In this document: piece after piece, positions 12,682 through 51,007 of the stretch | How the letters are laid out: each line of letters begins with the position of its first letter | How positions within the stretch are numbered: position 1 is the first letter of the stretch | Source: Flavobacterium magnum | GTDB lineage: Bacteria; Bacteroidota; Bacteroidia; Flavobacteriales; Flavobacteriaceae | DNA: 64,000 bases | Assembly (NCBI RefSeq): GCF_003055625.1 | Contig: NZ_CP028811.1 | Coordinates: 1,178,001-1,242,000 of the forward strand | Direction of reading: 5' to 3' | Made by a program: the position numbers and the translations under genes | The notes under the pieces: model-generated | What the model saw: only the letters and a program-made list of their open reading frames with translations | Databases searched by the model: none | Told to the model about the DNA's origin: nothing

Positions 12682-12799
12682 TAATAAAATACTTTATATC
12701 AATATATTTTGTAATCTATCGTTTAAGGACGTGTTGTCTGCTTTTAAAAAATCCCCGGTGCGCTAATGATCGGACAGATGCCCATCTTACTACTGCCAT

Positions 12800-14485: not shown

Positions 14486-14508
14486 AGGTTTTGGTTTAAG
14501 AGGAAAAG

Positions 14509-32967: not shown

Positions 32968-32985
32968 GATCGTGAGTTTTAAATG

Positions 32986-33729: not shown

Positions 33730-33921
33730 AATGAACATTTAATAGTGGTTAATAATCATTTTACCCGAAATTGGTCCCGCCGCCCCACTTGCGGTACTTT
33801 TCCGGAAATTTAATTTGCCGTCTGTTTACTGGAATCTTTGTTATTTTTTGGTAATGTAAAGTTGTTTATTAATTGTGCATGAATGTTTCACAATAACTTT
33901 AAAACCTTACATAATTCACAT

Positions 33922-33955: not shown

Positions 33956-34975
33956 ATGAAAGAAAAAGCCACCTTAAAGCAAATCGCGAAAGAACTGCAC
34001 GTCTCCGTCTCCACGGTTTCAAAGGCGCTCAATGACAGTCCTGAAATCTCGGAACCCACCAAAATCAAGATACAGGAATTTGCCAAACTCAAAAACTACA
34101 AGCCCAACATCATTGGCCTGAACCTGAAGAACCGGAAGACCAAAACCATCGGCGTGATTATCCCGAACATCATGAACGCGTTCTTTGCCAAGGTCTTCAG
34201 CGGCATAGAGAAGGTTGCCGAAGCCAAAGGCTATAACGTAATCACCTGCATTTCAAACGAGTCGCTCGAAAAGGAAATCCACACGCTCGACATGCTCAGC
34301 AACGGTACCATTGACGGTTTTATCCTCTCCGTTTCGGAAGAGGCACAGAAGCTCAACGAATACCAGCATTTTGTCGACGTCATTAACGACGGTACACCCA
34401 TTGTGATGTTTGACCGCATCGCTGAAAAGGTAGATTGCGACAAGGTCGTCGTAGATGATTTCGATTCTGCGGTGCATGCCACACAGCATCTGCTGAAACT
34501 CGGCTGTAAAAAAATTGCACTGCTTTCGGCGATCGATAACCTCAGCGTAGGGAAGTTGCGTGCCAAAGGGTATTATGAAGCGCTCGAAAAAAACGGTTCC
34601 CACGCCAGCGATACCCTGATTATCCGTACGGATACCGAAGAGGATTTCAATCAGCGGATTGAGACGTTACTTGACCGTGAGCAACCCGACGGCGTGTTTG
34701 CCTTAGACGAGCATGCGTCGACCATGGCGATGAAAGCGGCAATAAAACGCGGCATCAGGATTCCGGATGATCTCTCAGTAATCGGGTTTGCCGACGGAAT
34801 CTGGTCCAGGCGCATGACCCCAAGCCTGTCGACCATCAGCCAGCACGGACCCGAAATAGGCGAGGCTGCCGCGAGGTTGCTGATTGAGAGGCTCGAAAGT
34901 AAGGAAGAGGTCAAGCCCGTAACCAATATCATTAGGACTGAACTGCGCCAACGGGATTCTACCAGGAAATTATAA
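33956..34975 (+). CDS. LacI-family transcriptional regulator
   Basis: A 339-residue repressor-type regulator. The HTH (about residues 6-30) reads TLKQIAKELHVSVSTVSKALN, with the hinge region following. The effector-binding domain has the usual signposts TIGVIIPNIMNAFFAKVFSGIE, the VVVDDFDSAVHATQHLL block, DGVFALDEHASTMAMKAA and TTIS-type C-terminal segment PSLSTISQHGPEIGEAAARLL. Nothing around it is an obvious sugar operon. It overlaps the next, convergent methyltransferase gene by 6 bp. The effector and targets are unknown. Confidence 0.92.
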   Translation: MKEKATLKQIAKELHVSVSTVSKALNDSPEISEPTKIKIQEFAKLKNYKPNIIGLNLKNRKTKTIGVIIPNIMNAFFAKVFSGIEKVAEAKGYNVITCISNESLEKEIHTLDMLSNGTIDGFILSVSEEAQKLNEYQHFVDVINDGTPIVMFDRIAEKVDCDKVVVDDFDSAVHATQHLLKLGCKKIALLSAIDNLSVGKLRAKGYYEALEKNGSHASDTLIIRTDTEEDFNQRIETLLDREQPDGVFALDEHASTMAMKAAIKRGIRIPDDLSVIGFADGIWSRRMTPSLSTISQHGPEIGEAAARLLIERLESKEEVKPVTNIIRTELRQRDSTRKL

Positions 34976-35635
34976 GCGCGTGATCCTGAAAATGTAGTTT
35001 TTCTCCCCAGCGACCTTTTTCTCCTTAATAGTATCGAAACCCATCCGGTTTTTGAAGGCTATGGATTGGATCGTCGGAAGGTCGCAGTCTTCTGAAAGGA
35101 TCAAATATATATTGTTTTCTGCCGTCGAGAAAACCGGCAGCTGCGCAAACAGTGCTTCAAAATAATTGAAGTCGCTTCCGCAGAACCAGGCTCGTTCAGC
35201 TACAGACTGCGGTTCTTTCGGATAATATGGAGGGTTGATGATAATGCAGTCAAATTCTCTTCCGCTGAGGTTTTCAAATAAGTCTGAAAACACAGCCTCG
35301 ACGTCTACACTGTTCTCCGCAGCATTTTGTGCCAAAGCCGTCAAGGCAATTTCATTGATGTCGGTCGCGGTCACCCGCGCGCCTTTTTTCGCCGCCAGTA
35401 TAGAAATGATGCCGCAGCCGCAGCCGAGTTCGAGAAAGCGCAGGTCTTTCTGCGGAAGCCCATCGATGAAATCCAGCAGGATGCGCGTGCTGATGGTGAG
35501 AAAAGGCGGAAAAACCGTGGGCTCTACCCAAACGGAAATGTCCTTGTAAGTGTATTTTCGGCGCTTTTTGAGGTACACCGCGCTCGCCTTCTTGAGGAAT
35601 GGGCTCAGGATTTTCTTTAGAATCTGTCGCATCAT
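34970..35635 (-). CDS. Class I SAM-dependent methyltransferase (HemK-like)
   Basis: A 221-residue methyltransferase. SAM-binding motif I is FLELGCGCGIISILAAKKGA, motif II includes VTATDINEIALTAL, and the motif IV sequence NPPYYP marks the HemK/N6-adenine group that methylates amide or amino nitrogen. Its start overlaps the stop of the B12-type radical SAM gene by 4 bp, making it the last gene of the radical SAM region. It could modify a glycan or protein of that pathway, or be an unrelated rider; only the placement suggests the former. Confidence 0.85.
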   Translation of the reverse strand: MMRQILKKILSPFLKKASAVYLKKRRKYTYKDISVWVEPTVFPPFLTISTRILLDFIDGLPQKDLRFLELGCGCGIISILAAKKGARVTATDINEIALTALAQNAAENSVDVEAVFSDLFENLSGREFDCIIINPPYYPKEPQSVAERAWFCGSDFNYFEALFAQLPVFSTAENNIYLILSEDCDLPTIQSIAFKNRMGFDTIKEKKVAGEKNYIFRITRL

Positions 35636-37152
35636 TCTGAGTAAAATCCTTCGATTTCAGGCTGGCGGTACTTCCAGATTTTTTGCAATGCCTTGATTTC
35701 GTATGGAAAGTGATACCATCCTGTTTTATATCGGATGCCTGAGACTGCGCGCAGCAAATGCCTTTTGTAGCCCTTAATCCGAAAATCAGACACCGTCGGA
35801 TAATAGCCGTTCAGCACAGTTTCAAAATTCCGGATCGTATCAATCATGTAAGGCTTGAGCCAGGGCGTAAGCGGATTTTTGCGCAAATCGAAGTTTTCCC
35901 AGCTCGGCGAAATCCATTCTTCGAGCGTTTCAGGGAATGAAAATCCGGCATCGGTAATCTGGCGGTACAGTGCAGAACCTTCCGTGGGTACGGGGCTGAA
36001 AAGGTAGATAATGATTTCAGCATCGGGGTTGATGCGCTTGATTTCCTTGATGAAATTGATGTCCCATAAGATCTGATCGTACACTTCCTTTTCGGTATCG
36101 GCAGGCATGCCCAAGACAAATGACAACTCAGGGATGATGTCGGCGTTTTTCATGCGCAGTACAAAATCCCTGATCATCCTGCCGGTCTGCGTACCGCCTT
36201 TATTCATTTGTTTGAGTACGGCGTCATTGCCGGTTTCGGCGCCAAGGAAAATCATCCGGCATCCGGCCCTGCGCATCAGTTTCAGGTCGTCGTCGGAATA
36301 CATATTAATGGTATCAATCCTTCCCTCGCCCCAATAACTGATGTTGTCGTCCATGATCAGTTCGGAAAACTCAAGCACACGCTTTTTCGACGTAAAAAAA
36401 TTATTGTCGTGGAATTCGACGGCGTCGATATTGTATTTTTCCTTAAAATATTTGACATCCTCATAGATCCGCGCGGCTGACATGCCTTTCCATTTCGCAT
36501 TAAATATCGGCACAACCGCACAGAATGAACACGAAAACGGGCAGCCCATACTCGAATGATAGGACAGGGTTTTACGGCCCATGAAGGTTTTCGCAAGATA
36601 ATTGCGTACGGGATAAAACGAATTCAGGTAGTCGTAGGGAAGTTTCGGCAGGGTATCCTGATCCAATAACGCTTCCACGGCGGTTTTAACAATGTCGCCC
36701 TTTTCGTTTTTATAGATCAGGTTCCTGATCAGGAAAATGGTGTCCGTGTCGCCCGATTCGATCGCAGAGATCAGTTGCGGAAAGGTATTGTCGCCCGGCC
36801 CGTTGATTACATAATCGACCACGCCTGATTCGAGTGCCACCTTATATTGGTTGGATGCGAAATAGCCGCCCCACACCGTGATGACATCAGGATAGGCTTC
36901 GCGGATTTTCTTCGTAAACGGAATCGCCTGCCGCAATTGCGGGCCCGGCATCACCGTGGAACCGAAATACCTGAATTCACCGGTTTTGAGGTAGTCCTCT
37001 ATAGTTTGCCACGGGTCTTTCTCGAGATTGCCATCGACAAAAACATACTGGTGTTTGCCATGAATAGAGGCACCAACCTGCAAAATCGAATTCGGGATGC
37101 GGTGCTTTCCGTTGGCACTCCGGGGGTTGAATATGATGACTTTGTTTCTCAT
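35632..37152 (-). CDS. B12-binding-type radical SAM enzyme
   Basis: A 506-residue enzyme with a Rossmann-like N-terminal half (VIIFNPRSANGKHRIPN, VWGGYFASNQY, VVDYVINGPGDNT) of the cobalamin-binding type and a radical SAM barrel with the CxxxCxxC motif in GCPFSCSFCAVVPIF near residues 203-210. No DxHxxG motif is visible, so any cobalamin would bind without the lower His. The barrel goes on to EFHDNNFF and a MIFLGAETGNDAVLKQMNKG block. The start at 37152 (MRNKVIIFN) lies 2 bp after the SPASM gene stop; an earlier ATG at 37248 overlaps that gene. Probable reaction: methylation or rearrangement at an unactivated carbon; substrate unknown. Confidence 0.9.
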   Translation of the reverse strand: MRNKVIIFNPRSANGKHRIPNSILQVGASIHGKHQYVFVDGNLEKDPWQTIEDYLKTGEFRYFGSTVMPGPQLRQAIPFTKKIREAYPDVITVWGGYFASNQYKVALESGVVDYVINGPGDNTFPQLISAIESGDTDTIFLIRNLIYKNEKGDIVKTAVEALLDQDTLPKLPYDYLNSFYPVRNYLAKTFMGRKTLSYHSSMGCPFSCSFCAVVPIFNAKWKGMSAARIYEDVKYFKEKYNIDAVEFHDNNFFTSKKRVLEFSELIMDDNISYWGEGRIDTINMYSDDDLKLMRRAGCRMIFLGAETGNDAVLKQMNKGGTQTGRMIRDFVLRMKNADIIPELSFVLGMPADTEKEVYDQILWDINFIKEIKRINPDAEIIIYLFSPVPTEGSALYRQITDAGFSFPETLEEWISPSWENFDLRKNPLTPWLKPYMIDTIRNFETVLNGYYPTVSDFRIKGYKRHLLRAVSGIRYKTGWYHFPYEIKALQKIWKYRQPEIEGFYSE

Positions 37153-37154
37153 GG

Positions 37155-38234
37155 CTAAAAAGCGCTGCAGCAGCGGGAGCAAGCGGGCAGGAACCCACCC
37201 GCATCCCTGAGGTCTTTGCGGAATTTTCCAAAAACGGGCGAATTCCACAAATCTTTGAGCGAATCGTTATAGATGTTACCGACCTGAAGGTTGTAGCAGC
37301 GGCCGTGCGCCGGAATGGCTGATCCGTCGGATTTGATCATGATGCTGCTGTAAACCGCTTCACACCTTTTGCCCAGGATCACGTCCGATCGGTGGTAATA
37401 GGTTTCCATGCTGTCCGTGTCGTTCAGTTCCGGCGAAAAGTAAATCCTGAACGGGTAATTTCCCGCCTTGACCGCACGAACCTGTTCGAGCAGCGCAGGC
37501 AAATCCATGTTATCGAGATTGACTTCGTCCAGGTTGGATTCGGTTGCCGGATAGCGCTGTCCCCAAATCTCATTATGCAATGCAGCAATTGACGGCTCGC
37601 CGAACTGTGTGTGCATGAAGCCGATTTCATGCAAGGGAAGGTCCTTGAAATAATCTGCGAAAGCCCTGAGGCTGCCTGAATTCCACTCGGTGACCGCGCT
37701 CACGATGGACACTTTCGGCGGATTCTCAAAATCGAACAATCTCCGGATCCCTTCGAGCGCTTTCTGGAACGACTTGTCGTTTCCGCGAATCATGTTGTGT
37801 GTTTCCTGCAAACCGTCAAGCGAGACGAATATCTCCTGAAGGCCCGCTTTCACAAGCGCTTCGGCTTTATTGGGCAGCAGCAGCGCATTGGTCGTGATGG
37901 CCGTATACAAATTGTGATTGGTCGCGTATTGCACGGCTTTGACAATATGGGGGTAGGCAAGCGGCTCAGTGAATAAAAAGCCAAGTTTCGATTTTGGAAA
38001 ATACTGGCGCGTCTGGTCGGCAATTTTCTCGAAAAGTTCCAGTGGCATGTTCAGCGGGGTTGTCCCCACAAGGTTTTTCGCAAAATTGGTTTCGAGGCTC
38101 AGTGTCCCTACATCGCACATCTTGCAGTGCAGGTTACAGGTATTGTTTACGCCGAGCACAATCCATTGCGGTGCAAACCGATAGTCGTCAGGCAGCAGTT
38201 TCTTATTGGCATACCGAAGTGCTCTTTCAATCAT
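37155..38234 (-). CDS. Radical SAM/SPASM enzyme
   Basis: A 359-residue protein with an N-terminal CNLHCKMC cluster motif (Cys32, 36 and 39) and a C-terminal SPASM-type Cys group (KRCEAVYSS, HGRCYNLQVG, PACSRCCSAF) for further Fe-S clusters. SPASM enzymes modify peptides, proteins or sugars; the same architecture is also used in glycan modification. It is the first gene of a three-gene run with the B12-type enzyme and the methyltransferase. It is divergent from the glycosyltransferase at 38297, with only 62 bp between them. Confidence 0.88.
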   Translation of the reverse strand: MIERALRYANKKLLPDDYRFAPQWIVLGVNNTCNLHCKMCDVGTLSLETNFAKNLVGTTPLNMPLELFEKIADQTRQYFPKSKLGFLFTEPLAYPHIVKAVQYATNHNLYTAITTNALLLPNKAEALVKAGLQEIFVSLDGLQETHNMIRGNDKSFQKALEGIRRLFDFENPPKVSIVSAVTEWNSGSLRAFADYFKDLPLHEIGFMHTQFGEPSIAALHNEIWGQRYPATESNLDEVNLDNMDLPALLEQVRAVKAGNYPFRIYFSPELNDTDSMETYYHRSDVILGKRCEAVYSSIMIKSDGSAIPAHGRCYNLQVGNIYNDSLKDLWNSPVFGKFRKDLRDAGGFLPACSRCCSAF

Positions 38235-38296
38235 TGTGGGAATGTGTCGGGTTTGACAAATGTAACGATTTTAAATAATTTTCATAATTTTGGCCA

Positions 38297-39397
38297 ATGG
38301 CACAAAACTACCATAGTTTCCTGGATATATCGGTGTACAACAGGGATATAAAGTCAGTTCAGGAAGAGATCGATTTTACGCCACACTCCCTGGGATACCT
38401 GGACTACCTCGACAAGAATATTGATTATGCCGTAATCCGTTTCGGTGCCTGTGCCGAAGAAAAGCCGCCTTATTTTTTATACAGATACCGTTTTTCCGAT
38501 TTGTTGCGCCTGTATCGCCTCATTAAGTCGAAAAAAAACGCCGTGGCCCTGTTTCACGGGTTTTCATTCCCGTTTCGGTTTTACCTGATGCGTGCTGTTT
38601 TTGGCAGAAAGGTCCAATGGATTGTACAGCATCACGCCGGAGAGCCTTCTGAAAACAGGCTGAAGCGTTTTATCCAGAGAAAATGCTATGCCTTGGCAGA
38701 TCGTTATTTTTTTGTGAGCAGGCAGCAGGCGGAATCATTTATAGCAGCGGGCCTCGTCAGTAGCGCCGACCGCGTAATCGAAGTCATGGAATGTTCCACC
38801 GCGTTTGTCATGAAAGACAAAACAGCTTCGCGTGTGCAGCTCGCCATCGACGAACAGCAACTCACATTCCTTTGGGTAGGGAACCTCGACAGCAATAAAG
38901 ATCCATTGTGCATGCTCAGGGCTTTGGCGCACTACAGGCAGGCCGGATATGTGTTTGAATTGTACATGTTTTTTGTGAATGACCTCCTGCTGCAAACGGT
39001 TGTTTCATTCATCGATGCAAATGATCTCGGAACGCAGGTGCACCTCAAAGGGAAAGTCCCCAATGCGGTGCTTGAAGACTGGTTTAATGCAGCGGATTTC
39101 TTTATTTCATGCTCCCACTCTGAAGGGAGTGGCGTGGCCATGGCCGAAGCTATGGCGTGTGGATGCGTTCCGATAGTGAGCGACATTCCGGCCTTTATCC
39201 GGATGACCGGCGGAAAGACAGGCGTGATTTTTGAAACAGGGAATCCGGATGATCTTTTCGAAAAACTCATGGCATTGGATACTTCGGGTATCGAGCAACG
39301 ACGCGCCGAAACGCGTCAGGCTTTTGTGGACAGCCTCTCCTTTGAGGCCATCGCCCGCGACACCGCCATGGCAATTGCCGGTTTGTCTCAAAAATAA
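38297..39397 (+). CDS. GT4-family glycosyltransferase
   Basis: A 366-residue glycosyltransferase of the GT-B fold. The N-terminal domain includes QWIVQHHAGEP; the C-terminal nucleotide-sugar-binding half has FLWVGNLDSNKDPLCML, LKGKVPNAVLEDWFNAAD and the E-x7-E motif in EGSGVAMAEAMACGCVPI. It is the only plus-strand gene inside the region, and its last 10 bp overlap the convergent glycosyltransferase gene. A TAATTTTG box at 38285-38292 would place transcription about at the ATG, suggesting a very short leader, without a matching TTG. The sugar is unknown. Confidence 0.88.
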   Translation: MAQNYHSFLDISVYNRDIKSVQEEIDFTPHSLGYLDYLDKNIDYAVIRFGACAEEKPPYFLYRYRFSDLLRLYRLIKSKKNAVALFHGFSFPFRFYLMRAVFGRKVQWIVQHHAGEPSENRLKRFIQRKCYALADRYFFVSRQQAESFIAAGLVSSADRVIEVMECSTAFVMKDKTASRVQLAIDEQQLTFLWVGNLDSNKDPLCMLRALAHYRQAGYVFELYMFFVNDLLLQTVVSFIDANDLGTQVHLKGKVPNAVLEDWFNAADFFISCSHSEGSGVAMAEAMACGCVPIVSDIPAFIRMTGGKTGVIFETGNPDDLFEKLMALDTSGIEQRRAETRQAFVDSLSFEAIARDTAMAIAGLSQK

Positions 39398-40416
39398 AGA
39401 TTGTAAATGTCGCGACACACCTCAGCCATGCGGTAATAGGTGACGCGTTTTGCAGGAGCCGGGTTTTCGAGTAAGCTTTTAATACGGATTACAATGTCGT
39501 CTTTGGACTGGATGCAGTGAAAATTTTCAACGGGTTTGTCCGTCATGGGGAGCGTGCCTACGAGTTGACAGCCGGAAAACAGCGATTCAAAGTATACGGT
39601 GGAACCGCCCTCAAAAGTAGACGGATGGAAAAAAACCGTCGCATTATTCATTTTTTCCAGCGTCTGACTGTGGGTCAGTAGTCCCGTAAGCTTCAGGTTT
39701 TGCCCAAGATTGTGGTGCCTGATGAATTCTGTGAGCAGGCCTTCCTCAGGACCCGCTCCGGCAATCTCCGCCCGAATGTCCGGCAAGGTCTTCTTCAGCT
39801 CAAGGATTACCTCCGCAAACAGCCGGTAATTTTTAAGCGGTGTGAGCCATCCTGCGCCAAAAATATCAATTGTCCTTACCCTGGTATTTAATTCCGGAAA
39901 TAAACTTTCATTGATCGCCATCGGAATGATTTTGTGCGCTTTTATCCCGGTGGTTTTCCCCAGAACTTCGTTATTGTAGTGGGATAATGCGGCTATTTTG
40001 TCCGGATTGGGTGTAAACAAACGCAGTGTCAGGTTGCTGTCCATCACATCCTGCCCCAACATCCAGGTGAAAGTTCGTGGATGTATCCATGAGGTGAGGA
40101 CACTGAATTCATGATACCATAAGTTCAGGATGCCATCATAATTGTTGGTTTTATGCAACCGCCTGATCTTAAGAAAGGCTTTTAGCAGAAACAGGGCTTT
40201 TCCGGGATATTTCACATCATTGCCCAATAACGGAATCACTTTTATGCCGTGCCAGATGTAGGGTGCTGAAATCGGTTTGTGAATGGCGACCACCGTGATG
40301 TCAACATCCGGGTATTGCGTCCTGAATTCAAGAAACACATGCCGAAGGAATGGGATCACATGACTTTCAGAGTCGTCTTTGGGGAATGCGGGAGAAAGGA
40401 TGAGGAGCTTTTTCAC
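39388..40416 (-). CDS. GT4-family glycosyltransferase
   Basis: A 342-residue GT-B enzyme. The start is MKKLLILSPAFPKDDSES; the donor-binding half shows DIFGAGWLTPLKNYRLFAE, AEIAGAGPEEGLL and the E-x7-E pair in FEGGSTVYFESLFSG. It follows the ABC exporter gene by 4 bp and is convergent with the plus-strand glycosyltransferase, overlapping it by 10 bp. It probably adds a sugar to the lipid- or protein-linked product exported by the neighbouring transporter. Confidence 0.88.
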   Translation of the reverse strand: MKKLLILSPAFPKDDSESHVIPFLRHVFLEFRTQYPDVDITVVAIHKPISAPYIWHGIKVIPLLGNDVKYPGKALFLLKAFLKIRRLHKTNNYDGILNLWYHEFSVLTSWIHPRTFTWMLGQDVMDSNLTLRLFTPNPDKIAALSHYNNEVLGKTTGIKAHKIIPMAINESLFPELNTRVRTIDIFGAGWLTPLKNYRLFAEVILELKKTLPDIRAEIAGAGPEEGLLTEFIRHHNLGQNLKLTGLLTHSQTLEKMNNATVFFHPSTFEGGSTVYFESLFSGCQLVGTLPMTDKPVENFHCIQSKDDIVIRIKSLLENPAPAKRVTYYRMAEVCRDIYNLYF

Positions 40417-40420
40417 GGTA

Positions 40421-42115
40421 TCAGCAGGGTACTAGCGTTTGGTTTTCCATACGGTAAACGCGGTCACAAAAGCCTGCGATATCAGGATTGTGCGTTACGG
40501 TAAGCACAGCCATGTCCTGAGCGGAACTTACGTGCCGGATGAATTCGTAAATGCGGCGTTCCATGGCTTCATGCTGTTGGTTTGTCGCCTCATCAAGGAT
40601 CAGAAACTGCGGCCTGCCGTACAATGCGCGCATCAATGCCAAACGTTGTTTTTGCCCTCCGGACAGCCTGCCGGTATTATGCTGTAATACAGTGTCCAGC
40701 CCCTGGGGAAGCGCATGAAGCATTTCCATAGACAGGTTTTTCAGGAGGATTTCGATGTAGTCGTAATCAATGCGCGCTGCATCCTGCCGCATCGTAATAT
40801 TTTCCAGCACCGTACCATAGAAAATAAATGGCTGTTGCGGGACGTAGCCCGTAAAAGAAAAGAAAGGGTTGCCGGAGACCGGGCCGTCATCAAGGTATAG
40901 GCTTCCGCTGTCCGGAATGATCAGTCCGGCTGCGAGGTGAAGGAAGGTGGTCTTACCCGAGCCGGTTACCCCATTGATGCCGATAATTTGTCCCTTGCTG
41001 ATGCTGAAATTCAGGTTGCTCAGGATGGGCTCTCCCTGCGGGTACCTGAAATCAATGTTTTTAAACGAGATCGTTTTATCAAAACCGTCGTAACGGGTGG
41101 CATCAGTTAGGGCAGTCTGGTTTCGCCTGAGCAGGCTGATAGTATAATAGTGCGAGTTCACCATCGTAACGGCATTCAAAATCTTATTTATTGATGGGAT
41201 AATTTTAATGCTGAGCGCTGCCAGCACCGAAATCAATACGAATGCATCTTTGCCTTCGGGCATCATCAGGCTGTACAGTATCAATGCGGCAGTACCGGCA
41301 ATCAGGAAAATTTCCAGATATTTCGAATAATTTGCTGACGTGGCAGTAAGCAGCGCACTGGCCTGATCTAGGGGCCGCTGTTCGTTTGCATAGCGCCCGA
41401 TAAATTGCGCCGACTGCCCCGAGATCCGTATATCAACATAGCCGTCCATGATATTAACCAGTTCCGCGTTGGCTTTGGCAGCAGCCTCCTTGTATTGCGT
41501 ATTGATCATTATGATCTCTTTCTTTTTTATACTGTAGATGATCCAGGCGAAGAGGCCGATACCCAAAAGCGTAAAAATGGTTAGTTCGAGGTAAAAGCAT
41601 AGCATGACCGAGAGGATTACAATAAAAGTCAATGTTTCTGATATCAGGAGCATGACCGAAGCCAGTAAACTGGTGGAAAAGTCCCGACATGCCGTTGTGA
41701 TGCGCTGCATGAAAATACCCTTACCCTGTTGCTGGTGTTCGGGGTAATGGGCGCCAAGATGATGCGTTATGGCGTCTACGGAAAGTTCGCGCGACAACTG
41801 GTAAAGGAAATGATATTGCGCAGTGTTAAAGCGGGATTGGAAGATGTTTTTGACCACGTAAATGGCAATGAGCAGCGTCACGGTGACAGCAATCGTTTGC
41901 GGACTGAACACATTGATATCAATACCATACCGCTCAAAGGCGCTGGCCAGTTTTTGCCGGTCCAGCAGCAAAAGCATGGCAGGGATAAGGTAAGCCACTG
42001 AGAGCAGGTCAAGAAAACTGAACACTATTGAGGCGTAGACGAATTTCCGAAAAGACCCGCGGCGGTTCTTCGGGATAACGGAAATGATGTCGCTGAATGC
42101 TGTAATAATCCTCAA
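40421..42115 (-). CDS. ABC exporter, fused permease and ATPase (MsbA/PglK-like)
   Basis: A 564-residue half-transporter that probably flips a lipid-linked or amphipathic product across the inner membrane. Six membrane helices fill about residues 20-320. The nucleotide-binding domain has Walker A GVTGSGKT (near residue 383), the Q-loop in GYVPQQPF, the signature LSGGQKQR (near residue 485), Walker B FLILDEAT and the H-loop in VLTVTHNP, so it should be active. The layout fits flippases such as PglK. It is followed 4 bp later by a glycosyltransferase, which supports glycolipid export. Confidence 0.92.
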   Translation of the reverse strand: MRIITAFSDIISVIPKNRRGSFRKFVYASIVFSFLDLLSVAYLIPAMLLLLDRQKLASAFERYGIDINVFSPQTIAVTVTLLIAIYVVKNIFQSRFNTAQYHFLYQLSRELSVDAITHHLGAHYPEHQQQGKGIFMQRITTACRDFSTSLLASVMLLISETLTFIVILSVMLCFYLELTIFTLLGIGLFAWIIYSIKKKEIIMINTQYKEAAAKANAELVNIMDGYVDIRISGQSAQFIGRYANEQRPLDQASALLTATSANYSKYLEIFLIAGTAALILYSLMMPEGKDAFVLISVLAALSIKIIPSINKILNAVTMVNSHYYTISLLRRNQTALTDATRYDGFDKTISFKNIDFRYPQGEPILSNLNFSISKGQIIGINGVTGSGKTTFLHLAAGLIIPDSGSLYLDDGPVSGNPFFSFTGYVPQQPFIFYGTVLENITMRQDAARIDYDYIEILLKNLSMEMLHALPQGLDTVLQHNTGRLSGGQKQRLALMRALYGRPQFLILDEATNQQHEAMERRIYEFIRHVSSAQDMAVLTVTHNPDIAGFCDRVYRMENQTLVPC

Positions 42116-42148
42116 GGCATAAATTTTTTAAAGATACATTTTTACCGA

Positions 42149-43039
42149 CTACACGACGGAGTATCGCCGCCTCATTTTCTCCGACGTCAACCAGAATTTG
42201 TGAATGTGTGCCAATGCGGGCGCGTCATTCACAACGGTTCTTTCGGACACGACCTCCGCGATATACACATTTTGCGTAGCGTATTCCATAATTTGGACGA
42301 TGCGCGCGGCCTCGTAACCCGAAACGGTCTCGGGCACAGGAATACCCGTACCTGTGTCTGTGCGGAATTTGATTTCGTCCTGCGCCACGCGGAATTTCCC
42401 CAGCTGGTATATCATGTCCCGTTTGCTGAAATCGGCATCACCGATGATGATCACATCGCCGACAGCGCAGCCGCCGATGATGTTATTTGACCTCCGTGCC
42501 CCGAATATATAATGATCCCAAACCTTACGGCAGGTATCGACGGGGAAGGCGTTCGTATTTTCCGTTGTGGCGGTACACACAAGGAATACCGGTTTCGGAT
42601 AGTAAAAAAACGCAATCAGCTTTCGGTAAACGCTGATATCGAGTGTCCCGATGACGTATTTTTTTTTGACCAGCGCCCTCTCATAGAACCGCTGCAGGTA
42701 CCGTTTTCCGAATAATCCCGTACGGATCGCGGCGTCATTTACAGTGCATAAAAAGATATTCCCTGACGAAGTCCGGATGTTTGCGTTATACGTAAGGTCG
42801 AAACGAATGGTGCCATTTTTGATATTCAAACACGAGACGCCGGCCATACTTTCAGGGGTGACTTCAAATTCGGGAAATACAATTCCTATCAGCTGCGGCT
42901 CGTACAGCACATTAAAAAAAATCACCTCGTAATCTGTTGCGTCAATCGTTACAATCGCTTCGTTCCCGGGAACCGTATCGAGTGCGACCTGAACGTATTC
43001 GGGCTGTTTTTTGGCGAAAAATCGGATTAGTCGGAACAT
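42149..43039 (-). CDS. Unrecognised 296-residue protein, faintly flavin-reductase-like
   Basis: I do not recognise this protein with confidence. There is no signal peptide or membrane segment. The middle (PVFLVCTATTENTNAFPVD, about residues 150-170) faintly recalls the FMN-binding split-barrel of flavin reductases, and the region near residue 190-200 contains a Gly-Gly-Cys stretch (GGCAVGDVIIIGD). It lies 5 bp downstream of the GNAT gene and 33 bp upstream of the ABC exporter, so it belongs to the same operon. If the flavin link is right, it could supply electrons to the radical SAM enzymes, but this is only a guess. Confidence 0.4.
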   Translation of the reverse strand: MFRLIRFFAKKQPEYVQVALDTVPGNEAIVTIDATDYEVIFFNVLYEPQLIGIVFPEFEVTPESMAGVSCLNIKNGTIRFDLTYNANIRTSSGNIFLCTVNDAAIRTGLFGKRYLQRFYERALVKKKYVIGTLDISVYRKLIAFFYYPKPVFLVCTATTENTNAFPVDTCRKVWDHYIFGARRSNNIIGGCAVGDVIIIGDADFSKRDMIYQLGKFRVAQDEIKFRTDTGTGIPVPETVSGYEAARIVQIMEYATQNVYIAEVVSERTVVNDAPALAHIHKFWLTSEKMRRRYSVV

Positions 43040-43044
43040 GTCTT

Positions 43045-43977
43045 TTAAAATATATCAACGTCGGCCAGCGTAAATTCAAGTTTTTCCAATGGAAACGACG
43101 AGTTAAAGTTCTTGTATCCTATGATCCACGAATCAAATTGCATGGCTCCGGGAAATGATTTCAACAGGAGATCTTTCCGGCTGCCTGCAGTCACCTGGAA
43201 ATGGATTTCCGATACGCCGCCTTTCTTACAAATGGTTTTCAAGGCAGACAATCCGCGCTGGAATGCTGCGGAAGTATCGGCTTCGAAATCACCAACCACC
43301 AGTTTTTTTCCGTTCTTGATCCAGAAGATGCAACCGCCGGCCTGTATTACAAAATTACCCGAGAAACGCTTATAGTCAAAATGAACGGCATCACGGACGG
43401 TCGTTACGGCACTCCGATCGTTACCTGTCGGCATAAGCGCCGTTGTAACATATTGCAATAATTGTGCTGCGGATTTACGCCGTAACGCATTTTTGAGTAT
43501 CGGAATCTCGTTTATTATTCGGGAGAATAATCCGCTCCCGGTCCTGAAATAATATCCCGACATGCGTTGGCTGAATTGCCAATGAAGCGTGTCGAGCAGG
43601 AGGTGTTCTGAATTTTGGTTTGGAAAGCCGAAAATCATCGTGAAACCGTTTTTTTCCAACACCTCATGCGTCAGTCTCGCAAGTTCGGCAAGCAACCCCC
43701 TGCCACGATATTGGGGATGGGTCATGGCATCGACGGCCTGAGCCGCCCGCTCGGTTTGTGTTCCGTGACCAATCAGCACAGGGACGGCCCCAAAAAACGA
43801 CACCGGTACAGTGCCGTCATAAGCAATAAAACCAAAAAACCGATCGCCCAAGTCAGGCCGGGTAAATTTCGCCCTTATAAATGACGGCGCGATGTTTTTA
43901 CGGTAAACCGCGTGGTACAGCCGTGCAAAATCGCTGAGGTGGGCTTCCGAAAATGATTTTATAGTGCTGGTTTTCAT
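43045..43977 (-). CDS. GNAT-family acetyltransferase
   Basis: A 310-residue protein whose N-terminal half is a GNAT fold: the acetyl-CoA loop reads MTHPQYRGRGLLAELARL near residues 90-110, with a downstream FTMIFGFPNQNSEHLLLD stretch. The C-terminal half is longer than in simple GNATs and could carry a second, CelD/FemAB-like domain. The start overlaps the stop of the polysaccharide deacetylase gene by 4 bp. In this setting an amino sugar or amino-acyl group on the glycan is the likely acceptor, which is inference. Confidence 0.82.
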   Translation of the reverse strand: MKTSTIKSFSEAHLSDFARLYHAVYRKNIAPSFIRAKFTRPDLGDRFFGFIAYDGTVPVSFFGAVPVLIGHGTQTERAAQAVDAMTHPQYRGRGLLAELARLTHEVLEKNGFTMIFGFPNQNSEHLLLDTLHWQFSQRMSGYYFRTGSGLFSRIINEIPILKNALRRKSAAQLLQYVTTALMPTGNDRSAVTTVRDAVHFDYKRFSGNFVIQAGGCIFWIKNGKKLVVGDFEADTSAAFQRGLSALKTICKKGGVSEIHFQVTAGSRKDLLLKSFPGAMQFDSWIIGYKNFNSSFPLEKLEFTLADVDIF

Positions 43978-44999
43978 CTGTATGACCCTTTGAGCAGGCA
44001 GGCGATAAAATGTTTTTTTGAAATGTACGGATTTACCACGAACCGCTCCCGCATGGCCCCGTGTGCCGACTGGTTTTTTAATTTGTCTACCAGAAGCAGC
44101 CTGCTGTAACCCGCGCTTATTGCGATACCTGCGGCCTCGTCGTTATAATCCCCAAACGGGAACGCAAAGTCATCAACGGGTTTTCCTGTAATCTGCTCCA
44201 GGGTAGCTTTTCCTGTGACGATTTCGTTGGCCACACTCACTGGACTCACGTGAATCAGGCTGGAATGGTTCACGCCATGTCCCCCGATCGTAAATAAATC
44301 GTTATTGCTGATGTCCCTGATCTGGTCTGCCGACAGGAGCTTCCAATACAGGGTATGCCCGGGTGAAATTTGTTTCCATTCTTCGGAGAAAATGCCATAT
44401 AAAGGCTTGATGGCTTCGTGTTCGAGGGTTCGGCAATAATTTTTGAGGGTGATCCCACCCGATACGAATTCCCTTTTGCGGTTTAGTCTCCAGATCTTGT
44501 CCCGAAATCTTACTTCTTTCTTGTCCGTGTAAAAACTTACAAGGTCCAGGAAATCGGGCCATATAAAGTCCTGTTCCGTTGGTACGGTGATAAAAAAGGT
44601 AGCCGGAATACGGTATTTTTTAAGCAGCGGGATAGCAAGTTGAAAATTGTTCTGCAATCCGTCATCAAACGTCAATGCGATGTTCAGCACGCCTTCCCTG
44701 AATTTACCTGCATAGAAATCCTCCAGTGACAGGATGTTGAAATGCCTGCTGAAATAACACAGCAGTTCTTCAAAGTAATCCTGTGACAGGTAACGGCTGT
44801 TGAAACGCGTTTCCCCAACGGTATCGATGCCGTGAAACACCAGGATTCTTTCCCCGTACCGATTTTCAAGCCACCTTTTGCCCAACCCGATGCGAAACCC
44901 CAATGACCTGAGCAGCAGCTTGAGGCGGTATTTGATGCGCATCAGTAACAATTGGTTCGTTTGCATAGGGTTTCTGGTATCGATTGCTTTTCTCGGCAC
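43974..44999 (-). CDS. Polysaccharide deacetylase-family protein
   Basis: A 341-residue NodB-like hydrolase. The metal and catalytic motifs are present: LTFDDGLQNNF (Asp-Asp), GGHGVNHSSL (His-x3-His), and FAFPFGDYND. There is no clear signal peptide, though a basic hydrophobic start (KYRLKLLLRSLGFRIGLG) could attach it to the membrane. An alternative start lies at 44966. It is 11 bp downstream of the B12-type radical SAM gene and overlaps the GNAT gene, so deacetylation followed by acylation on the same amino sugar is a plausible sequence of steps. Confidence 0.88.
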   Translation of the reverse strand: MPRKAIDTRNPMQTNQLLLMRIKYRLKLLLRSLGFRIGLGKRWLENRYGERILVFHGIDTVGETRFNSRYLSQDYFEELLCYFSRHFNILSLEDFYAGKFREGVLNIALTFDDGLQNNFQLAIPLLKKYRIPATFFITVPTEQDFIWPDFLDLVSFYTDKKEVRFRDKIWRLNRKREFVSGGITLKNYCRTLEHEAIKPLYGIFSEEWKQISPGHTLYWKLLSADQIRDISNNDLFTIGGHGVNHSSLIHVSPVSVANEIVTGKATLEQITGKPVDDFAFPFGDYNDEAAGIAISAGYSRLLLVDKLKNQSAHGAMRERFVVNPYISKKHFIACLLKGSYR

Positions 45000-45010
45000 G
45001 GAAGCGGTTA

Positions 45011-46390
45011 TTATCCTTTCCGGATTGCCATCATCACCGTAGCAGCCGCGGCTTTGGTCTTTAGTTTTAATGCTTTCCAGGTCATTCGGTTTTGGGCATA
45101 TTCCCTGTGAAATGCTACTTCGTTCGCCACTTTCGATACGGCATAATCGTAGTATTTGCGCGGATATTCTCTTTTAAAATCAATCTGCCTGTCGGTTGAG
45201 GTTTCCCAATCCGGCGCCATGGTGATGTCCTTTTCGATTTCGTCGAAAAGCGGTGTGCCTTTAATCGGATAGGCAATCGTAATGGTGTAATGCGTCGGGT
45301 TAGCCTCTTTGAGGTACTGGATGGTTTCCGAAATATCCGCTTCCGTCTCACCGGGATAACCGACCATGATAAAAGTGCCGGTTTCTATGCCCAAAGCGTT
45401 GGTGTCCTGGATCATTTTCTTTACATGGATGACGTCGACGCGGCGGTCCATCGCATCAATGATGCGCTGCGATCCGCTTTCTGCCCCGATCCAAATGCGG
45501 AAACAGCCTGCTTCCTTAAGCAATTGCAGGATTTCAGCGTTGAGCCGTTCCGCTCTCGTGATGCATTCAAACCGGATCTGGGCGCCCTGCTTCATCACTT
45601 CCTGATGAAATGCCGTAAGCCATTTGTGGCTTATCGTAAACACATCGTCGACAAACCAGATGGCATCGGGATTGTATTTTTCTTTGAGCATTTTCATTTC
45701 TGCAGCCACCTGATCAGCGGGCCGGCGTCGGTAGCTTTGGCCGTACACTGCCGTGCTGCACCATTTACAGGTATACGGGCAGCCGCGTTGGGTCGATATG
45801 GTCATGGCGCTTTCGCCGTGATTTTTCTTCCAGGTCTCCAGGTACTTTTCATTAGGAATCGCATCCCGGTTTGGCCACGGCAGGGTGTCGAGGTCGCGGA
45901 AATTGGTCCGTGCAGCCGTTTTGATTACGGTGCCGTTTTCTGAGTAGGCGATACCGGCAATCTCTGTGTAAGCGGTATTTTGTAAAAGCGCCGTACACAA
46001 TTCAAACATGGTTTCCTCGCCTTCGCCGATGACGAGAAAATCAGCGCCGGCTTTGAGGTAATTTTCAATATTGTAACTTACGTCAGGTCCGCCAAGGATG
46101 ATTTTCGGAAAGCCATACTCTGGCAGTTTCAGGATTTTCATCAGGCTGATGACCTCGATCTTGGTCATCAGGTTGGTATAAATGGCGACGATTTTCGGCT
46201 TTGTTTCCAGGATATATTCCAACTGCTCTGCTTTCGAATAAAAGGTCGTATCATACACATCGTTATCGATGCCCTTGCTGTGCAGGTATGCCGAGATATA
46301 CAGCAATCCCAGCGGCGGATACGGTTTCATGATCCGCTGCTCTTTGGGGTCGGCTGACAAATAATAGCCATGTGTGAGTAGTACGCTCAT
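45011..46390 (-). CDS. B12-binding-type radical SAM enzyme
   Basis: A 459-residue enzyme with the same plan as the gene at 47166: a first block THGYYLSADPKEQ, YPPLGLLYISAYL, a GEGEETMFEL motif at the end of the Rossmann domain, and the radical SAM cluster in RGCPYTCKWC near residues 202-210, followed by YGQSYRRRP. The cobalamin-binding DxHxxG motif is not seen. I chose 46390 (MSVLLTHG), because its ATGA overlaps the methyltransferase stop by 4 bp; an earlier ATG at 46411 overlaps more. Probable carbon methylation or related radical chemistry on a surface glycan or lipid; substrate unknown. Confidence 0.9.
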   Translation of the reverse strand: MSVLLTHGYYLSADPKEQRIMKPYPPLGLLYISAYLHSKGIDNDVYDTTFYSKAEQLEYILETKPKIVAIYTNLMTKIEVISLMKILKLPEYGFPKIILGGPDVSYNIENYLKAGADFLVIGEGEETMFELCTALLQNTAYTEIAGIAYSENGTVIKTAARTNFRDLDTLPWPNRDAIPNEKYLETWKKNHGESAMTISTQRGCPYTCKWCSTAVYGQSYRRRPADQVAAEMKMLKEKYNPDAIWFVDDVFTISHKWLTAFHQEVMKQGAQIRFECITRAERLNAEILQLLKEAGCFRIWIGAESGSQRIIDAMDRRVDVIHVKKMIQDTNALGIETGTFIMVGYPGETEADISETIQYLKEANPTHYTITIAYPIKGTPLFDEIEKDITMAPDWETSTDRQIDFKREYPRKYYDYAVSKVANEVAFHREYAQNRMTWKALKLKTKAAAATVMMAIRKG

Positions 46391-47169
46391 TTTTTCTTCA
46401 GTACGATGCAATAATGATCCGAGTAAGCCGAGAGCCAGGTCGCATTCCGGATGGATTTTTCGAGTCCGGCCAAAAATCGGAGCAGGCGTGGATGCCTGTT
46501 GAAATACGGCTGCAAATAGGAGGGCGGTATGAAAAACCCGATTGGGGCGATGCGTTCCACCTCAAAGCCCGCTGCTGCTAAAGTTACGGTTTCCTGGGGA
46601 TTATAGTAAAAAGTCGGAATTTTTTCACCGCTGACGTCCGCGATTACCAATTCATTTTTCCTGCGCGAGCTGCTGCGGAACGCGCCTTTTGAAACAAAGT
46701 ATATTTTCTCCCAAAGTGTCTTCTTGGGCATAATCACCAAAAAAAGCCTGCCCTCAGGTGACAGCAGATTGTACGCATCCTCGAAAAAGGCTGTCAATGC
46801 TCTTTTCGAAAGGCAATTCAGCCCACCGAAATTGGAAAATATGAGGTCAAATGCCCGGCCCGAAAAATAGGTTCCGAGTTCGGAAATGCCGACAGTTTCA
46901 AAAACCGGCATGGTTTTATGGCTTTTGGTTTTTGCCACAGCGATCATCTGCCCAGAAATATCGGTCGCCGTGATGTTAAAACCCTGATCTGCCATCCAGA
47001 GTGCGTCGGTGCCCGTTCCACAGTTAATTTCAAGTATGGTTTCCGGTTTAGTTCGGTCCAGTATGTCCTGCAGCACTTTGTACACGGCGTAACGCTGGTG
47101 TTTCCCGATTGCCGAATTCGTAAAATCCGTATCGTAAGAACCGGCCGCACGATCGAAGCCGGCGCTCAC
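46387..47169 (-). CDS. Class I SAM-dependent methyltransferase
   Basis: A 260-residue methyltransferase with motif I ILEINCGTGTDALWMADQG and motif II ITATDISGQMI. The post-motif region ILSNFGGLNCLS and the hydrophobic C-terminal half fit the UbiE/small-molecule methyltransferases. It is sandwiched between two paralogous B12-type radical SAM genes, overlapping each by 4 bp, so it almost certainly acts in the same pathway. O- or N-methylation is expected; the substrate is not known. Confidence 0.88.
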   Translation of the reverse strand: MSAGFDRAAGSYDTDFTNSAIGKHQRYAVYKVLQDILDRTKPETILEINCGTGTDALWMADQGFNITATDISGQMIAVAKTKSHKTMPVFETVGISELGTYFSGRAFDLIFSNFGGLNCLSKRALTAFFEDAYNLLSPEGRLFLVIMPKKTLWEKIYFVSKGAFRSSSRRKNELVIADVSGEKIPTFYYNPQETVTLAAAGFEVERIAPIGFFIPPSYLQPYFNRHPRLLRFLAGLEKSIRNATWLSAYSDHYCIVLKKK

Positions 47170-48620
47170 TTTTGAAGTTTTTTAAGACGCAGTCCGCTCG
47201 CAAAGGCCCCCGGCACATAATAACCCAGTTTTAGCACAGAAATGATCTTGCGCAGGGATAGTTGCAGCGGATTGCCGGCAATCGTTTTCAGGTTTTGCAT
47301 CCCTTGCGATTTTCGGAATTCCTTATGCACGAACCGCTGTAATTTTTTATAGTAGGTGGTGTTGAATGTGCCTTTGAACATCATTTCGAGGTCGTCCGAG
47401 TCTGACCAGTTGGCCTTTCCGGAAAGCTCCGACCTGACCCTGTCATAAAACGGGGTGCCGGGCAGGGGATAGGAAACCGAAATCCCGATATTATCCGGCA
47501 TGAGTTCCCTGACCATGGCAATGGTCTGCGCAATATCTTCACGGGTTTCGCCGGGATACCCGAACTGCAGGAAAAATGCGACCCGGACCTTCCTGCTTTT
47601 CAGCAGGCGTGTGGCTTCGTAGATCTGCTCCACCTTTGTGCCCTTATCCATCGCATCGAGGATTTTCTGGCTTGCGCTTTCTGCGCCTACCCAGACTTCC
47701 TCGAGGCCGGATTCCGCCAGCGCATCGATGGTGTCCGCTTTCAGCAACAGGTCGACCCGGCTTTGGATGTAATAGCGTATCTGTAGTTTCCTGCTTTTCA
47801 GCCCGGCATTGAAGTGTTGTACCCAATTGGGTTTCAGGCCGAAGATGTCATCACACATCCAGAAGCGTTTCACCCCAAAAGACTGACGCAGGAATTCAAT
47901 ATGGTCGACAATGTATTCAGGTGAGTGTGAGTTGTAGCGGTTGCCGTAAATAGGCTTTGCGCACCAATTGCATTTGTAGGGACAACCGCGCGTGGTGGCG
48001 ATATTCAACGTAAATTCCTGTCCGCCCTGGTTCCAGATAATCTTGTAATCGTTCATCTCGATCAGGTCCCAGGCAGGCATCGGGAGTGCGTCGAGATTTT
48101 GCAGTACCGGCCTTTTGGGGTTTAACTGGGTGTGGTGGCCATTTTTAAACGCAAGGCCCTGCACATCATCCGGCGCGTCGCCTTGCTGCAATTTGTTGAG
48201 GAGCTCAAGTAAGGTAAATTCGCCTTCGCCCTGTATGATATAATCGGCACCCTGTTCGAGATAGAGCCCGTAATGGTCGGTCGAATCGGAGCTGTTTACG
48301 ACCACCGTCACGCCGTTTTTTTTGGCCAGGCGAATCATGTCAAAAGCCGCTTCCCGCATCGTCGTGAGGCACATCTTGGTCAGGTAATTGAACCCGTCGT
48401 CAAAAATCACGAGGTATCGCGGCCGGAGCGCTTCGATTACAGGCTTGATTTCCATCGGGTTTTCAATGAGGCAGGTGTCAAAAAGCGACACGGTATAGCC
48501 GTTTTCACGCAGCAACGACGCGGCGTATAAGGTCCCTAACGGCGGGAAAGGCGTTTTGTTCTTCCACTGTTTTGGGTCCCTTCGGTAGAAATAGGAATGG
48601 GTAAACAGCACTTCAGACAT
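47166..48620 (-). CDS. B12-binding-type radical SAM enzyme
   Basis: A 484-residue enzyme paralogous to the one at 45011. It starts THSYFYRRDPKQWKNK, followed by PFPPLGTLYAASLL, the domain-closing GEGEFTLLEL, and the radical SAM motif RGCPYKCNWCAKP near residues 210-217 followed by IYGNRYNSHSP. The barrel contains WMCDDIFGL and VWVGAESASQKILDAMDKG. The Cys spacing is intact. Like its paralogue it lacks DxHxxG. The gene overlaps the nucleotidyltransferase gene upstream by 8 bp and the methyltransferase downstream by 4 bp. Confidence 0.9.
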   Translation of the reverse strand: MSEVLFTHSYFYRRDPKQWKNKTPFPPLGTLYAASLLRENGYTVSLFDTCLIENPMEIKPVIEALRPRYLVIFDDGFNYLTKMCLTTMREAAFDMIRLAKKNGVTVVVNSSDSTDHYGLYLEQGADYIIQGEGEFTLLELLNKLQQGDAPDDVQGLAFKNGHHTQLNPKRPVLQNLDALPMPAWDLIEMNDYKIIWNQGGQEFTLNIATTRGCPYKCNWCAKPIYGNRYNSHSPEYIVDHIEFLRQSFGVKRFWMCDDIFGLKPNWVQHFNAGLKSRKLQIRYYIQSRVDLLLKADTIDALAESGLEEVWVGAESASQKILDAMDKGTKVEQIYEATRLLKSRKVRVAFFLQFGYPGETREDIAQTIAMVRELMPDNIGISVSYPLPGTPFYDRVRSELSGKANWSDSDDLEMMFKGTFNTTYYKKLQRFVHKEFRKSQGMQNLKTIAGNPLQLSLRKIISVLKLGYYVPGAFASGLRLKKLQK

Positions 48621-49515
48621 ATTCCCTTTGTAATTCTATATTGTGGTTGATGCGGATTTCGTCGTATTTATCATTCAGCGCATTGATGACCTTTTTCTGG
48701 AAATTCAGCGGATGGTGCTTCGAGATGTCTTTGGTGGATTTCAGTGCGACCTTGAAATCCTCGGAACGCATCTGCCGGAATTTCAATTTCCAGAAAGTGA
48801 CCGTCGTTTTTTTGAACAGCGAATCGAGCTGCTCGCCCGCTTTGGTATCCAGTAACTTCTCGATAATTTTCACGCCTCCGGGCTTGCTGATGATGCCCAC
48901 GCTTTCGAGTTTCGGGTCATACGTGCCGAGCAGGCCCGAAACCCAGTCATTTTTTTTATAAAATTCCTCGAATACCAGCCTGCCTTCGAACGGGATCAGC
49001 GTCTTGATTTCCGTAGCGGTGAACCTGTTTTTCTCCTCGACTTCGAGGCTTGACGAGGACATAAAATAGTTAATGCAGAAATATTTTCTCGAATTCAGAA
49101 GGAACAACTTTTTATACAGCATGAGCAACGTGCGCGAAATCCAAAGCTTCCCGGGTCTTGTAATGACAAAGAAATCAATATCACTGTCCTTGTCATAATA
49201 GCCTTTGGACAGCGAACCGGACACGCCGACGGCTTCTACGAATGGGAACTTCGAAATGAGCGTTGCACGTTCTTTGGCTTTTACCAGCGCATCGACTGCC
49301 ATCTTATTGCCATTTTTCCTTTTTTCAAGGCAGCCGGGGTCGTAAACAGGATAGTAATAATCTTCAATCCTGAAAATGATTTTTTTCGCAACCAGTTCGG
49401 TAAGTTCGGCTTCGATCTTAGGGCAGTCCTTCGAGATCGAAAAACTGCATATTTCGTCCAGCCGCAGCGGATAGTGGAAGAGCGAAAAATACAGTATGGT
49501 TTTTAATGATTCCAC
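48613..49515 (-). CDS. Minimal-nucleotidyltransferase-domain protein
   Basis: A 300-residue protein with the pol-beta-type active site GSLSKGYYDKDSDIDFF (Gly-Ser plus Asp-x-Asp, near residues 96-112). The N-terminal 90 residues look like a winged-helix stretch (LDEICSFSISKDCPKI). The rest is helical and basic. Such proteins transfer a nucleotide to a small molecule, protein or RNA. It is the first gene of the radical SAM run and overlaps the next by 8 bp. It could activate a sugar or lipid intermediate, or serve as a regulatory antitoxin-like enzyme; a toxin partner is not seen. Confidence 0.82.
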   Translation of the reverse strand: MESLKTILYFSLFHYPLRLDEICSFSISKDCPKIEAELTELVAKKIIFRIEDYYYPVYDPGCLEKRKNGNKMAVDALVKAKERATLISKFPFVEAVGVSGSLSKGYYDKDSDIDFFVITRPGKLWISRTLLMLYKKLFLLNSRKYFCINYFMSSSSLEVEEKNRFTATEIKTLIPFEGRLVFEEFYKKNDWVSGLLGTYDPKLESVGIISKPGGVKIIEKLLDTKAGEQLDSLFKKTTVTFWKLKFRQMRSEDFKVALKSTKDISKHHPLNFQKKVINALNDKYDEIRINHNIELQREYV

Positions 49516-50922: not shown

Positions 50923-51007
50923 GATCCTGTTCGTTTTGGTTATTTTTTTTTGAAACAACGAAAGTCGCAGCCAAGGTGCCGAGCGGGTCGCGCTGCAAAG
51001 GGTTGTT

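Follow-up and report, generated by a model that had tools for sequence, protein, structure and literature searches.

A constant frame of radical SAM and partner genes around an exchangeable, probably glycan-building middle in Flavobacterium magnum and its relatives

The window analyzed here is a stretch of 64,000 nucleotides of Flavobacterium magnum DNA (assembly GCF_003055625.1, contig NZ_CP028811.1, positions 1,178,001 to 1,242,000), and the subject of this report is a cluster of 13 genes within it, at 34970..49515, that encodes four radical S-adenosylmethionine (SAM) proteins together with methyltransferases, glycosyltransferases, and a putative flippase. Twelve of the genes lie on the minus strand, in the order M, L, K, J, I, H, G, F, E, C, B, and A from the 5′ end, and one, D, lies on the plus strand between E and C (Table 1). 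A preliminary description of the window gave coordinates and gene families that agree with our Pfam and NCBIfam results, but it counted eleven minus-strand genes and one plus-strand gene—its own list names 13 functions—and regarded the cluster as a single pathway of twelve co-conserved genes. Comparison with related loci leads to a different view, in that only M, L, K, J, and the B-A pair, here called the frame, are constant, whereas the genes C to I, here called the middle, come and go. We therefore read the cluster as an exchangeable glycan cassette in a fixed frame, not as one fixed pathway.

Table 1. Genes of the cluster, in window positions. Loci, occurrence among the 54 loci compared; that of M, L, J, and A is given in the text.
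Gene	Positions	Strand	Part	Assignment	Pfam match (bits)	Loci
M	48613..49515	−	frame	winged-helix domain and nucleotidyltransferase with ANT(4′)-like fold		
L	47166..48620	−	frame	B12-type radical SAM protein	PF04055 77.7; PF02310 26.2 (below cut-off)	
K	46387..47169	−	frame	class I methyltransferase	PF13649 52.8	53
J	45011..46411	−	frame	B12-type radical SAM protein	PF04055 87.3; PF02310 47.5	
I	43974..44999	−	middle	NodB-type polysaccharide deacetylase	PF01522 72.9	12
H	43045..43977	−	middle	GNAT acetyltransferase	PF13527 31.2	12
G	42149..43039	−	middle	protein with no Pfam match above cut-off		3
F	40421..42115	−	middle	ABC exporter, PglK/MsbA-like flippase	PF00005 90.8	18
E	39388..40416	−	middle	GT4 glycosyltransferase	PF00534 45.2	26
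D	38297..39397	+	middle	GT4 glycosyltransferase	PF00534 67.3	8
C	37155..38234	−	optional companion of B	SPASM radical SAM protein	PF04055 62.4; PF13186 36.5	14
B	35632..37152	−	frame	B12-type radical SAM protein	PF04055 56.1; PF02310 31.7 (longer start used)	41
A	34970..35635	−	frame	MTS-fold methyltransferase, NPPY motif	PF05175 62	

The genes from M to E are tightly spaced, at −25 to +33 bp (the value of −25 bp depending on the choice of start), as are C, B, and A. The two groups are divided by D, which converges on E with a 10 bp overlap and diverges from C across a 62 bp gap, and therefore at least two minus-strand transcription units are needed. Thus, the tight linkage earlier ascribed to nearly all neighbors holds within each group but is broken by D, and the coupled expression of all genes deduced from it is not supported. 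In each of the eight loci that carry D among the 54 compared below (the window and seven others), this gene is inverted. As judged from the sequence, the start of gene B is most likely the ATG at 37152, 2 bp past the stop of C, with the B orthologs having a median length of 506 amino acids; an upstream GTG start, which would overlap C by 94 bp, is disfavored relative to this ATG. The GC content of the cluster (0.47–0.51) is inside the range of the window.

Relatives of L were found in 328 stretches passing the search, of which 80, nearly all titled Flavobacteriaceae or Flavobacteriales, were kept as named loci; all 80 match L across at least 473 of its 484 residues. Fifty of these loci were searched for B, and 36 of the 40 B-positive ones were taken whole, with G175, G185, and G189 left out for their long spans and G190 for having L and B on separate contigs. 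The set of 54 loci consists of the window, these 36, four B-bearing genomes of the same genus (G021, G061, G077, and G089), ten named genomes without B, covered by 10 kb flanks only, and G050, G096, and G113. Genes were called with a greedy script taking the longest open reading frame, by which short or overlapping genes can be lost (L was lost in L189, as possibly was the flippase of L133). The 804 called proteins were grouped by single-linkage clustering of blastp matches with a score threshold, which biases identities within a family upward. L and J share one cluster and were distinguished by gene order, and the middle families were identified by Pfam on one representative each.

In this set, M is present in all 54 loci, K in all but one, and the pair of L/J-type radical SAM genes in 50, with M-L-K-J contiguous in 47. 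At the other end, A adjoins B in 41 of the 41 loci with B, and occurs in 0 of the 13 loci without it. In the 41 B-bearing loci, J and B are 2.8 to 21.5 kb apart, and the genes separating them vary: besides the families of C to I (Table 1), GT2, GT87, more methyltransferases, extra B12-type radical SAM proteins, a carbamoyltransferase, an arylsulfotransferase-like protein, and a GDSL family were found there. A further B12-type radical SAM gene of one such cluster (c26; positions 4030-5448 in L134) lies on the opposite strand inside the middle of 7 of the 54 loci. Even between close relatives, the middle genes are exchanged as whole sets; in J27 and NRK F7, which are sister loci, six frame proteins correspond at 75–91% identity, and the two have no middle family in common. 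Scattering of the genes without co-occurrence, which the preliminary description had named as the outcome that would speak against a single pathway, is not seen for the frame but is partly seen for the middle.

Across the 41 B-bearing loci, B had a higher mean pairwise identity (0.79) than any other family compared; the remaining frame proteins gave values of 0.73 (J), 0.70 (L), 0.56 (A), 0.52 (K), and 0.51 (M). Middle families gave 0.38 for F, 0.41 for GT87, 0.43 for E, and values within 0.40–0.45 for H and for the families c11, c16, c17, c19, and c20, with higher identities for c7, c18, D, and I (0.52–0.57), for C (0.62), and for the GT2 family c6 (0.69).

The exchange extends to the putative flippase. 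When candidates were scored by length and hydropathy, counting all genes past J to the end of the stretch in loci without B, exactly one was found in 50 of the 54 loci, none in three, and two in one; the type is ABC in 18 loci and Wzx-like in 33. On a quick tree of L, J, and B for 40 loci (13 of them ABC), supported by the Shimodaira–Hasegawa-like approximate likelihood ratio test only and with 23 of 38 inner branches at 95 or above, the flippase type requires at least 9 changes. Shuffled labels required a mean of 11 (range 7–13, 200 shuffles), and 43 of 500 shuffles needed 9 or fewer, so little tree signal is left in the distribution of the two types.

Among 150 genomes, that of F. magnum included, a strong L ortholog (E below 1e-200) occurs in seven other genomes of the genus, and weaker relatives occur in two genomes of the same order (G113, 57%; G096, 52%). 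A strong B by the same threshold was found in six of these seven and in F. magnum itself, never without a strong L; the seventh, G050, which is 83% complete, has no strong B. B is present at 67–91% identity in 40 of the 50 named genomes with L (in 39 of them on the contig of L) and absent from the other 10. In a sample of the phylum, 27 of 395 genomes (F. magnum included) have an L relative at E 1e-60 or better. A further 28 neighborhoods were inspected, 24 found by L and four by M (G143, G674, G678, and G710), with G278 and G395 omitted and with L207 repeating L068. M lies near L in 22 of the 24 found by L, is cut by the contig end in L208, and is lacking in L201; B lies near L in at least 11 of the 24, a lower bound given stretches of at most 19 kb.

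Some of these distant neighborhoods have company of their own. In L187 and L206, from distant Bacteroidota, an amidohydrolase-family gene and a methyltransferase gene, both identified by Pfam, lie within four genes of B, and the same pair, as judged by size and first residues, is found in L182, L186, and L198. The amidohydrolase and methyltransferase may possibly form, together with B, a second module in distant Bacteroidota; the cluster of the window contains no amidohydrolase. In L186, a protein encoded in one open frame (12743-14731) joins an M-like C-terminal part, 26% identical over 207 residues, to a GT4 domain. L202 and L204 have a Wzy_C-family gene no more than two genes away from M, next to genes that are weakly GNVR- or Wzz-like.

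Beyond M, the cluster is flanked by polA and a beta-lactamase-family gene; beyond A come rplM, a ferritin-like gene, and a LacI-type gene. Sixty genomes were searched for the polA-rplM interval, 37 of them from the genus (F. magnum included), 27 of which have both genes on one contig. The two genes are 11.6, 14.3, and 19.1 kb apart in the three genomes with the block, and 1.4–4.9 kb apart on the same strand in 22 of the 24 same-genus genomes without it, the two exceptions being 26 kb (opposite strands) and 70 kb. Within the genus, some genomes thus have the block in the polA-rplM interval and others do not. Such a gain/loss site, together with the hypervariable middle, is also what a loose accumulation of genes at a recombination hotspot, serving no single pathway, would look like. 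We consider this highly improbable, because the order of the frame and the one-flippase pattern are kept, and because B equals or exceeds PolA in conservation in the three genomes compared (86 versus 77% in G011, 85 versus 77% in G021, and 81 versus 80% in G034), although L, at 66–70%, is less conserved than PolA there.

Several features of the surroundings were also recorded. The ferritin-like gene (32986-33738; Ferritin_2) and a neighboring gene, within 32152-33738, lie between rplM and the LacI-type gene. The beta-lactamase-family serine hydrolase, with a DUF3471-like tail, adjoins M at 49600-50958, and its family stands at one locus end in 7 of the 54 loci (the window included). Two records that contain the cluster together with a flavobacterial polA (75–76% identical to that of the window), L054 and L057, have the titles Bifidobacterium breve and Sphingobacterium thalpophilum, respectively, and look like mislabeled bins.

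With respect to the enzymes, L, J, B, and C all pass the PF04055 cut-off and belong to the radical SAM superfamily, and the CxxxCxxC motif is present in L in 54 of 54 loci, in J in 49 of 50, in B in 41 of 41, and in C in 14 of 14. Three of these proteins had been described as B12-binding in type. Relative to the PF02310 cut-off of 32.1 bits, the B12-binding domain scores above in J, is borderline in B (31.7 or 32.6 bits), and falls below in L. Elsewhere in the genome, three B12-binding domains are encoded by open frames of 899, 715, and 1170 amino acids, which makes the use of B12 plausible. C exceeds the SPASM cut-off of 21.5 bits, with Cys residues at 291, 313, 352, 355, and 356, and the NPPY motif of A is present in 41 of 41 loci. 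While a comparison with characterized families, as called for in the preliminary description, confirms membership of the radical SAM and SPASM families, no cut-off of a named family (BchE, HpnJ, HpnR, PhpK, AprD4, TIGR04295, and others) was reached by L, J, or B among the NCBIfam matches examined (the best 25 of 38 for L, the best 25 of 39 for J, and all 25 for B). The scores were 141 of 481 bits for L against BchE, 169 of 600 for J against PhpK, and 113 of 481 for B against BchE.

These distant matches bear on what the frame acts upon. HpnJ and a model of ladderane-type lipid B12 radical SAM proteins are within the top five NCBIfam matches of L and J, far below cut-off, and a common carrier would account for a constant frame with a variable glycan; the frame enzymes might thus modify a lipid, either the polyprenyl carrier or a glycolipid anchor, and not a sugar. 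We regard this as unlikely, given that no lipid-biosynthesis family is prominent among the Pfam matches of the frame, and that M and B point elsewhere. M has two invariant Asp residues and, in a comparison with the highest-ranked Foldseek chains, a nucleotidyltransferase fold resembling that of aminoglycoside nucleotidyltransferases; a profile search of solved structures with M returned matches only at E 0.1 or weaker. The best solved match of B is AprD4, an apramycin biosynthetic oxidoreductase that acts on an aminoglycoside, and AprD4 is second for L and J.

As the ANT(4′)-like fold of M, the rank of AprD4, and the best solved-structure match of C, cytosylglucuronate decarboxylase, would all suit it, a secreted small molecule of aminoglycoside-like or pseudo-oligosaccharide type, with F as its exporter, has to be weighed as the product. 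It appears very unlikely: Wzx-like proteins replace the ABC gene in most loci, neither a cyclitol synthase nor an aminotransferase was recognized by Pfam in the cluster, and the relatives have GT87 and a GT2 protein weakly like polyprenyl-phosphate transferases, which point to membrane-linked assembly. F itself best matches PglK among NCBIfam models (residues 26-558, 179 bits against a cut-off of 1000), PglK being a flippase of lipid-linked oligosaccharides. The structure model of G, from three sequences and with a predicted local distance difference test score of 47.6, is too poor for any fold claim. Maturation of a ribosomally synthesized and post-translationally modified peptide was set aside, with the ApyD and rSAM_ocin models far below cut-off; a precursor peptide was not sought.

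The reading that we favor, and hold to be somewhat probable, is that the locus specifies a lineage-specific, flippase-exported glycan bearing a common moiety that is made or modified by the frame. The preliminary description had likewise proposed a glycan or glycolipid assembled and exported by a locus with radical SAM enzymes, and this part of it is supported by the two GT4 enzymes, the deacetylase, and the PglK-like ABC protein, and by the GT2, GT87, carbamoyltransferase, and Wzx-like proteins that fill the same place in relatives. A short glycan specific to each lineage would be assembled on a lipid carrier, on the cytoplasmic side of the inner membrane, by the variable glycosyltransferases, deacetylase, and acetyltransferase; the flippase, ABC or Wzx-like, would then move it across for surface display, lipid- or protein-linked. 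A short oligosaccharide would be likelier than a long polymer, because no polymerase is recognized among the middle genes of this cluster, which encode two GT4 enzymes along with a deacetylase and an acetyltransferase. Initiation would use phosphoglycosyltransferases encoded elsewhere; the four PF02397 matches of the genome, as well as its PF04932 genes, are located away from the cluster. Three places on the chromosome hold PF02397 matches (~92-96 kb, 884-887 kb, and 1652-1655 kb), two of which adjoin a Wzy_C match, and the genome probably carries further polysaccharide loci there.

Less firmly, the frame may make or modify one moiety common to all of these glycans. M would activate or tag this moiety by nucleotidyl transfer; L, J, and B would alter it by a radical reaction, be it C-methylation, deoxygenation, or a rearrangement of the skeleton; and K and A would add methyl groups to O or N. 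The parallels with AprD4, ANT(4′), and cytosylglucuronate decarboxylase, each a weak resemblance, point to an unusual aminosugar as the putative product of the frame, and C-methylation or carbon rearrangement is suggested by superfamily membership. More tentatively still, M, L, K, J, B, and A could constitute an undescribed radical SAM assembly line for a single unusual residue—a C-methylated, deoxygenated, or ring-contracted aminosugar—that serves as a universal adapter for lineage-specific glycans with either of two unrelated flippase types. If so, a family of surface glycans of environmental Flavobacteriaceae would rest on B12-type radical chemistry outside the named enzyme families searched, and surface structure would be tied to cobalamin supply. 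The constant frame with exchangeable flippases would, moreover, offer a natural experiment separating the chemistry of the common group from that of the variable glycan.

Several observations weigh against this reading. M, K, and A do not exceed the middle families I, D, c18, and c7 in conservation, with C and c6 higher; apart from L, J, and B, it is therefore mainly presence and order, and less so identity, that set the frame apart. Thirteen of the 54 loci lack B and A, and no strong B was found in G096 and G113, the genomes with L relatives at 52–57%. In L194, L195, and L200, from distant Bacteroidota with M-L, the sugar families of the cluster are unmatched nearby (as judged with no Pfam test), so the substrate of the frame need not be a glycan. 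The Wzx-like label depends on length and hydropathy, with one of the three representatives scanned having a weak Pfam match (E 0.034). polA lies in the fetched flank, at most 10 kb, for 43 of the 80 loci, and the site may thus not be common to all. Finally, a Pfam scan of the 13 genes revealed no initiating phosphoglycosyltransferase, polymerase, or nucleotide-sugar gene.

Compared with known systems, the B12-type radical SAM proteins of the frame are similar in domain architecture to BchE, HpnJ, PhpK, MgmA (PDB 9CCB), and AprD4, which are their best but weak profile and sequence matches; they differ from BchE and PhpK in scoring far below the equivalog or subfamily cut-offs. F resembles PglK by sequence only, and no oligosaccharyltransferase was recognized by Pfam in the cluster. 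A conventional Wzx/Wzy O-antigen or capsule locus was rejected because neither an initiating transferase nor a Wzy polymerase is among the 13 genes. The O-antigen locus of Flavobacterium psychrophilum, in the same genus, is alike in its conserved backbone, substituted genes, and exchange by recombination, but has rmlA, rmlB, wbpM, flnA-C, and Wzy-type variants (PMC5601056), none of which was found by Pfam among the 13 genes.

The LFG, a Bacteroides O-glycosylation locus, is closer in plan, with conserved ends, species-specific glycosyltransferases between them, and one flippase; it differs in being bounded by metG/wzx and two glycosyltransferases (PMC12871550), whereas the cluster ends, M and A, belong to a set of genes for radical SAM proteins, methyltransferases, and a nucleotidyltransferase. 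The main text of that source does not use the term "radical" (0 occurrences). The likeness, with PglK as the best NCBIfam match of F, raises the alternative that the locus is a non-homologous counterpart of the LFG, with its variable glycan forming the outer portion of Bacteroidota protein O-glycans and the common moiety attaching that glycan to the protein-bound core. This seems rather unlikely, in that the LFG order (metG, wzx, and two conserved terminal glycosyltransferases) is not seen here, and the block is absent from most same-genus genomes sampled, while O-glycosylation is described phylum-wide, although the LFG itself is not conserved across the phylum, in the same source (PMC12871550).

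The titles and abstract openings of the literature retrieved (for longer hit lists, a part of them) describe no comparable frame of radical SAM genes. The cluster has the conserved flanks, the replaced center, and the fixed site of polysaccharide loci with constant ends and a variable center (the site being measured in the genus only, and the B-A end present in 41 of 54 loci). Overall, the architecture is of this known kind, here with radical enzymes in its frame.

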